A stretch of 64,000 nt of DNA from Gongronella butleri. Its lineage: Eukaryota; Mucoromycota; Mucoromycetes; Mucorales; Cunninghamellaceae. A program made the translations under genes and the position numbers. This document shows positions 11,690 through 13,586 of this stretch, one piece after another; position 1 is the stretch's first letter; each line of letters opens with the position of its first letter. Where the stretch lies: positions 1-64,000 of the forward strand of contig JAIWZP010000097.1 of the NCBI GenBank assembly GCA_025201375.1. The letters run 5' to 3'. The notes beneath the pieces were generated by a model, which saw only the letters and a list, made by a program, of their open reading frames with translations, made no database searches and was not told where the DNA came from.

Positions 11690-13586
11690 ATGCCTTTCTA
11701 CCTCGTCCAGTTTGCACAGGCAAGTCTTTTTCTTAGCCGAGAAACCCGGCGTGGTGGCGCTCTCTGTGCCGTGTTTTGACGTTTTGTTGTTCTTTCTTTT
11801 TTTTTTCTAGTTCCATGAGGAGTTTCGCCTCCCCGAGCTCGAGTCCCTGGCTGTGCTGGAGAAGGTCAACTATAGTTACAACAAGGAAGACTATTCGCAA
11901 GTTGTACGTGGCATTGGAAGCTAAACAGAGGAGCATGGATGCGCAAAAGAGACTGATTTGTGCACTTTTTTGATGATAGAGTCCCTTTTTCAAGCTGGAG
12001 CTTGAGAACGACGAAGCTGCGCAGCGCCTTTCCCAACGATCGATCCTGATCAAGTAAGACCATCGAGGTCCCATGGATGGAAAAAAAAAAAAAGGCGAAA
12101 AAATGCTGATTTTGTGCTGTTATTTTTAGGCGAATTTATGAATTGTGGGGCGAGGGCGCGACGCACGAGGAAACGCACACGATGGTCAAGAGCCGGCCTG
12201 AGCGGTGGGACGCGTACATGAACGATACGTTTAAATTCTGCGTCAAGGCATTCAACAACACGGTGGCGTCCAAGCGGCAGCTGGAGATCATCAATGCGTA
12301 CAGCTATTTGGGATTCAAGGGCGCGATTGACATGAAGCGGCCGCAGCAGAGCTATTTTGTGATTGAGGACTGGGGAGCGGAGCTGCGCCACCCACAATTG
12401 CAGCGCGTGTACATGGGCCGTCTCGTCGCCTCGGGCAATCGCGATCTCGTCAACACGTACACACTCAAAAAGCGCACGTACCTCGGAACCACGTCCATGG
12501 ACGCCGAATTGTCGCTCGTCATGGCCAACCAAGCACTCGCCACGCCTGGAAAGCTCGTTTACGACCCATTCGTTGGCACAGGCTCGTTCCTCTTCACCTG
12601 CGCTCATTTTGGCTCCTACACTATCGGCTCAGACATTGACGGTCGCCAGATCCGCGGCCACTCGGCCGAAAACAGCATCCATGGCAATGTCAGCCAGTAC
12701 AATCTCCGCGGCCGCGTCGTTGGCGCGCTCGTCTTTGATGTCTGCCACCATCCCTGGCGCTGTACAGAATGGCTCGATGCCATTGTCACTGGTAAAGAAA
12801 GAAAAAAAGGGGAGGGGGCTTTTTTCTCAATTTTTTTCTCACTTTTTTCCTCTTTTGCTCCTCTTTTTCCTCCCTTTTAACAGATCGTATGTTTCTCTTT
12901 CACATCCCCAATTGGCCATTGGCAATTGCCCAGGACTGGCATCTCATCGTTTTCTTTCTTTTTCTCTAGCCCCCTATGGTGTTCGTGCCGGTGCCAAGAC
13001 GCTCGGTCGCCGTGAAGACAAGAAATACTCCAAATTAGCGCATGATGGCCCGCGTGCTCCGTAAGTGCGCCTTTTGAAGCCAATTGGAGGCCCGAATGGA
13101 CGCGCTCATCCCCCTTTGTTTTCTCTTTTTTTTTTGAATTGACAGCAAGGACGAAGGTTACCCGCCCACCAAGCCATACGAGATGTCTGCCGTGGTGTCC
13201 GACTTGCTCAGCTTTGCCGCCAAGCATCTGCGCGTGGGCGGCCGACTCGTGTACTGGCTGCCCACTGTCGTGGACGAATACACACCCGAGGATGTGCCCA
13301 GCCATCCAGGCATGACATTGATTGCCAACAGTGAGCAAAACTTTGGCCAATGGTCGCGCCGCCTCATCACCATGGAAAAGGTCCTGCCACTCGACAAAAT
13401 GGACATGCAAAATGCATCATCACAAGACCCACAGACCGCTGGTCACTATTTGTTTAGAGAAAAGGTAAAAGAGAAAATGAAAAAAAAAAATGAAAAACAG
13501 GCGCGCTCGAAGATCCTCGGCTAAACTATTGCTTTTTTTCTTCTTTTTTTTAGTATTTTTCATTCAAACAAGATCAAAGCGCATGA
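11690..13586 (+). CDS. TRM11: tRNA (guanine-10-N2) methyltransferase catalytic subunit
   Basis: The eight exons are 11690-11719, 11811-11900, 11980-12053, 12130-12791, 12884-12886, 12970-13060, 13146-13464 and 13554-13586, giving 433 residues. With its partner Trm112 the family methylates G10 of tRNAs. The N-terminal part resembles the Trm11 THUMP-like region (FRLPELESL, SPFFKLEL, IYELWGEG). The Rossmann fold has the SAM-binding motif VYDPFVGTGSFL, then SDIDGRQIRG, and the catalytic DPPYG at residues 286-290. The DPPY motif depends on a 3-nt exon (ATC, 12884-12886): joining exon 4 directly to exon 6 stays in frame but gives APYG. The first intron (11720-11810) begins with GC rather than GT (CAG/GCAAGT). 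An AATAAA lies at the end of the coding region. Spacing to the next gene is 309 bp. Confidence 0.93.
12884..12886 (+). other. TRM11: 3-nt microexon (ATC) of TRM11
   Basis: The bases ATC lie between AACAG and GTATGT, so both splice sites are consensus. The exon completes codon 286 (G+AT = Asp) and starts codon 287 (C+CC = Pro), restoring DPPYG exactly as in other Trm11 proteins. The flanking introns, 92 and 83 nt, have the usual size for this genome. Confidence 0.82.

Follow-up and report, generated by a model that had tools for sequence, protein, structure and literature searches.

A three-nucleotide exon very likely supplies the motif aspartate of Trm11 in Gongronella butleri and is probably overlooked in gene models of related fungi

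Inspection of TRM11 from Gongronella butleri (Mucorales) revealed three bases, ATC, lying between two phase-1 introns and completing the codon for the Asp of the D-P-P-Y motif. We consider it very likely that ATC is a real exon, normally included and inherited, and that the public Trm11 models reading T-A-P-Y-G at this place are annotation errors. The splice sites of both introns, the reading frame, the uniqueness of the solution and the lack of the Asp in the public model can all be read from the sequences themselves; from the frame and the motif we infer that ATC is spliced into TRM11 mRNA.

The gene lies in the window, by which we mean the whole 64,000-nt stretch of DNA that was analyzed, and the public G. 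butleri protein BC940DRAFT_314195 matches it at 100% identity and coverage. A sequence-only reading of this DNA had named the gene TRM11, and homology over the full length bore this out; the best named matches are tRNA guanosine and (guanine(10)-N(2)) methyltransferases, with coverage up to 100%. The coding part was modeled as eight exons (Table 1) separated by seven introns of 76 to 92 nt (sizes for TRM11 alone), six of which are GT-AG and the first GC-AG. Residues 179 to 321 or so are homologous to three solved chains, and in the alignment Asp287 falls on the Asp of the TDPPYG motif of 5e71_A and of the TDYPY motif of 6zxw_G and 6zxv_A. In Trm11 we take the Asp of the D-P-P-Y motif to be catalytic; by this family background and by its alignment to that residue in solved archaeal Trm11 chains, the same role would fall to Asp287. 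The G. butleri protein shares full-length homology and the aligned motif with the known tRNA m2G10 methyltransferase Trm11 and would be expected to make m2G10 in tRNA with Trm112; what sets it apart is an Asp codon interrupted by a phase-1 intron, with the rest of the codon coming from the 3-nt exon. The D329A change reported for THUMPD2 (PMC13109388) is in a SAM-binding motif and was not counted as evidence on Asp287.

Table 1. Modeled features of TRM11 in the window (positions are those of the window).
Feature	Position	Strand	Description
TRM11 coding part, 8 exons	11690..13586	+	434-aa open frame when the exons are joined; full-length Trm11 homology
Exon 1	11690-11719	+	part of the joined 434-aa frame
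Intron 1	11720-11810		modeled as GC-AG, donor GCAAGT
Exon 2	11811-11903	+	part of the joined 434-aa frame
Exon 3	11980-12053	+	part of the joined 434-aa frame
Exon 4	12130..12791	+	ends ACTG; the final G opens the Asp codon
Intron 4	12792..12883	+	92 nt, phase 1, GTAAAG...AACAG
3-nt exon ATC (putative)	12884..12886	+	splice enumeration, shuffles, DP-to-A fingerprint in 14 public models
Intron 5	12887..12969	+	83 nt, phase 1, GTATGT...TCTAG
Exon 6	12970..13060	+	starts CCCCCTATGG, the rest of P-P-Y-G
Exon 7	13146-13464	+	part of the joined 434-aa frame
Exon 8	13554-13586	+	part of the joined 434-aa frame

Between exons 4 and 6, at positions 12879-12892, the DNA reads AACAG|ATC|GTATGT, in agreement with the sequence-only reading in its letters, its coordinates and the lengths of the two flanking introns. 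ATC thus has the form of a microexon, in the sense of a coding exon of at most 30 nt with an acceptor to its left, a donor to its right and introns of workable size. It completes Asp287 (G|AT) and supplies the first base of Pro288 (C|CC), giving GAT-CCC. Joining the exons confirmed the predicted products: with ATC included the protein has 434 aa and reads VTDPPYG, and with ATC skipped it stays in frame, has 433 aa and reads VTAPYG, so that the D-P-P-Y motif is complete only when the 3-nt exon is present. In transcripts running from exon 4 to exon 6, inclusion corresponds to ACTGATCCCCCCTATGG and skipping to ACTGCCCCCTATGG. Branch-like YTNAY sites were found 42 nt from the end of intron 4 (CTCAC) and 23 nt from the end of intron 5 (CTCAT), the latter intron having a further one, TTCAC, at 67 nt; such 5-base sites are frequent by chance, and the last TRM11 intron has none. 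Over the 40 nt that precede the acceptor triplet, the pyrimidine content is 90% in intron 4 and 75% in intron 5, compared with 42 to 80% in the other five introns. A single intron spanning the whole interval with ATC inside it would be 178 nt long, versus the 76 to 92 nt of the modeled introns.

To see how many ways of splicing restore the motif, all other exons were held fixed and alternatives were enumerated. Single introns of at least 30 nt, with GT or GC donors at 12700-12999 and AG acceptors up to 13058, gave 266 canonical splicings; 72 keep an open frame and none yields DPPY or NPPY. Among 5441 splicings with two introns of at least 40 nt, 1189 are open and 18 contain DPPY, and every one of the 18 uses the donor at 12887 and the acceptor at 12969. 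Fifteen of these take 72 to 89 nt of intron sequence as exon, two use the 3-nt exon with exon 4 cut back to a GC donor, and the one that leaves exon 4 whole is ATC at 12884-12886. Among all of the splicings tried, no other exon gives DPPY with exon 4 intact. The string CAGATCGTATGT occurs once in the window and in none of 100 shuffles. When the 178-nt interval was dinucleotide-shuffled 100,000 times, with the ends held and at least 40 nt required on each side, YAG-AYC-GTRNGT was never produced, while the looser patterns YAG-NNN-GTRNGT and AG-AYC-GT arose 3 and 43 times, respectively. Elsewhere on the plus strand of the window, YAG-NNN-GTRNGT occurs at five sites (3101, 7968, 46447, 52001, and 55361), and on its minus strand there is none. 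With ATC included, the PF01170 score went up from 24.5 to 37.6 bits and the match grew from residues 180-231 to residues 180-298, through the motif; the TIGR01177 score rose from 57.3 to 69.8 bits, under the cut-off of that model both times.

The prediction that gene finders would miss ATC proved correct: the public G. butleri protein, 433 aa long, is the skip form VTAPYG letter for letter, and the same lesion is found in models from 13 other species. We aligned the best 120 of 2567 matches to the full-length protein, a sample in which animals, plants and ascomycetes are hardly represented. Among these listed homologues, 102 read DPPYG, 14 read TAPYG (Gongronella included), and 4 are irregular at this site. 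The 14 TAPYG models carry a one-codon lesion, DP to A, and come from Mucoromycota, Calcarisporiellomycota and Zoopagomycota. Nine are from Mucorales (Gongronella, Hesseltinella, Cunninghamella, Dichotomocladium, Halteromyces, Absidia, Radiomyces, Apophysomyces, and Lichtheimia) and the others from Endogone, Calcarisporiella, two Syncephalis and Thamnocephalis; the lineages of four of these species were looked up. Of 92 near-invariant alignment columns, the Asp and the following Pro are the only two that differ in all 14 TAPYG rows. Over the remaining 90 columns these rows have 27 deviating cells out of 1260, 22 of which fall in four proteins (P0090, P0092, P0055, and P0002); apart from the DP-to-A change, the TAPYG proteins are largely intact. 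Two further searches with the motif region of the skip form as query (24 matches in one, the best 120 of 165 in the other) added 93 proteins, many of them from Basidiomycota by name. None of the 93 is a TAPYG model; 92 read [DN]PPYG and one, P0189 from Hebeloma, is irregular at the D-P-P-Y site (DPP-CK-YG). Across all the proteins sampled, only Mucoromycota, Calcarisporiellomycota and Zoopagomycota show the A-form.

The four irregular models among the 120 differ from one another. That of Phycomyces (P0016) reads VTEAPYG, without the Asp and one residue longer than the TAPYG form, perhaps through a tandem acceptor on top of a missed exon. P0050, from Basidiobolus meristosporus, reads VTGSAHPPYG. 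The anomaly in two chytrid models, P0114 (Rhizophlyctis) and P0119 (Fimicolochytrium), sits exactly at D|PPYG; the stretch between Asp and Pro in P0119 looks like a read-through intron, which would be in phase 0, and the two models together hint at an old intron near this place. One TAPYG model, P0034 from Endogone, is 708 aa long, contains PF01916 as well and is perhaps a fusion of two neighboring genes.

Going from GAY-CCN to GCN removes AYC and nothing else. Under the GT-AG rule, no three-base displacement of a single splice site can have this effect, since AYC does not end in AG and starts with neither GT nor GC; therefore, either the residue has truly been lost repeatedly, or the three bases lie apart inside what is annotated as an intron, as in Gongronella. 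With GT-AG introns, the lesion fits a 3-nt exon that was missed between two introns in phase 1. Judged from the protein fingerprint, the other 13 TAPYG species would also have a 3-nt exon, although TAPYG models of different species are not independent if they were made by homology. The ATC exon is thus probably old and has probably been mis-annotated repeatedly, and the protein fingerprints would trace it to an ancestor shared by Mucoromycota, Calcarisporiellomycota and Zoopagomycota. Mucoromycota and Zoopagomycota probably last shared an ancestor more than 500 million years ago. Close relatives whose models read DPPYG may have lost the introns. RNA reads may have been used in making the public skip-form model of G. 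butleri; mapping of reads has been reported to fail at a plant 1-nt exon until that exon is annotated (PMC8831610), and the public model is therefore weak evidence of real skipping.

If ATC is an exon, introns 4 and 5, both short, would each be recognized on its own (intron definition). Two splicing complexes could not both fit around three bases, so the introns are probably excised one after the other, and inclusion of ATC is most likely constitutive. Without ATC, Trm11 would lose the Asp of its D-P-P-Y motif. Since a yeast trm11 deletion is reported to grow about as well as the wild type in the laboratory when not combined with trm1 (PMC9957541), some skipping of ATC may be tolerated.

It is also conceivable that ATC is a regulated switch, skipped under some conditions to give an in-frame Trm11 that lacks the Asp and might still bind Trm112, because skipping, unlike intron retention, leaves the frame open. 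If intron 4 or both introns are retained, a premature stop comes at residue 316, and if intron 5 is retained, at residue 315, so that among these outcomes only skipping escapes a premature stop; a condition-dependent microexon has also been reported in Trichoderma Xlr2 (PMC11121469). The switch reading is compatible with ATC being a real exon, but the TAPYG models are explained by annotation and we saw no sign of regulated use, and we regard it as unlikely. We give an equally small chance to its fuller form, in which the 3-nt exon has served as a frame-neutral on/off switch since the ancestor of Mucoromycota and Zoopagomycota, its regulated skipping producing a stable inactive Trm11 that occupies Trm112.

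The annotation could instead be right, with the Asp truly lost, ATC a chance match within one intron, and the enzyme inactive or Ala-based. In favor of this stand the 14 public models with TAPYG, which cluster beyond what shuffled labels give on a quick tree made from the 120 rows with the motif columns left out. Over 116 of the 120 rows (P0016, which reads TEAPYG, P0050, P0114, and P0119 were left out), the A and D states require at least 8 changes on this tree, which has 30 open forks among 117 inner branches and flagged long branches, including that of Calcarisporiella; 1000 shuffles of the labels gave a mean of 13.5 changes and no fewer than 10, so that the observed 8 is lower than any of them. 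A gene structure passed on by inheritance would cluster in this way, but as a genuine loss of this residue the A-form is scattered, and the same one-codon loss would have had to occur each time. The patchiness shows in Chlamydoabsidia (D), which falls with Absidia and Halteromyces (A), and in Syncephalastrum (D), which falls with Dichotomocladium and Lichtheimia (A). The otherwise largely intact TAPYG proteins and the failure of all 100,000 shuffles to produce a 3-nt exon with the right letters also argue against true loss, which we consider very improbable. That the Asp comes from another exon or a second TRM11 gene is less credible still: a PF01170 search of the genome found four other places besides TRM11, but no other source of the Asp was found, no single intron restores the motif, the other 17 two-intron solutions add intron sequence or cut exon 4, and a whole-protein search of the genome with E up to 10 gave five matches, all of them exons of TRM11 at 11690..13586.

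The preferred reading, a normally included 3-nt exon, has parallels elsewhere. Exons as short as 1 to 3 nt have been described from plants and animals (PMC8831610, PMC4674806, PMC7392893), and fungal microexons have been described as few (PMC11121469). The sequence-only reading had placed 3 nt close to the limit of what can be spliced; the limit itself lies lower, as Arabidopsis is reported to have an exon of 1 nt, and further ones are reported from plants (PMC4674806, PMC8831610). Those 1-nt microexons, in plant APC11 and VPS55, resemble ATC in being tiny coding exons missed by annotation and widely conserved, and the stepwise intron removal proposed for Arabidopsis APC11 (PMC4674806) is the model to which we liken TRM11; they differ in that they are 1 nt long, in plants, and shift the frame when skipped, whereas the TRM11 exon is fungal, 3 nt long, frame-neutral and part of a catalytic motif. 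A micro-exon of exactly 3 bp, conserved among insects, is reported in Drosophila homothorax (PMC7392893, which also cites 3-bp exons of troponin T and NCAM). That animal exon is an alternative to a 48-bp exon in Drosophila and encodes a noncatalytic residue, whereas no alternative exon was seen in TRM11. The Xlr2 microexon of Trichoderma virens (PMC11121469), like ATC, is fungal and absent from the public gene model; it belongs to an ascomycete transcription factor and is a glucose-tied switch established with RNA data, whereas the TRM11 exon is most likely constitutive. In the literature searched, with most subscription papers outside it, we found neither a fungal 1- to 3-nt exon carrying a catalytic-motif residue nor a microexon in Trm11/TRMT11. 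What looks new is the size of the exon in a fungus, the catalytic-motif residue that it carries, its likely age and the repeated database error.

If this reading is true, an active-site-motif residue of an enzyme hangs on a 3-base exon, and at least 14 fungal Trm11 models in public databases look dead but are not. The DP-to-A fingerprint would mean that a search of protein databases is enough to find missed microexons. A 3-nt exon that is neutral for the frame and has been kept for so long would offer a clean case of how the spliceosome deals with a pair of introns separated by three bases, and it raises the question of why such an exon persists when loss of an intron would end the risk.
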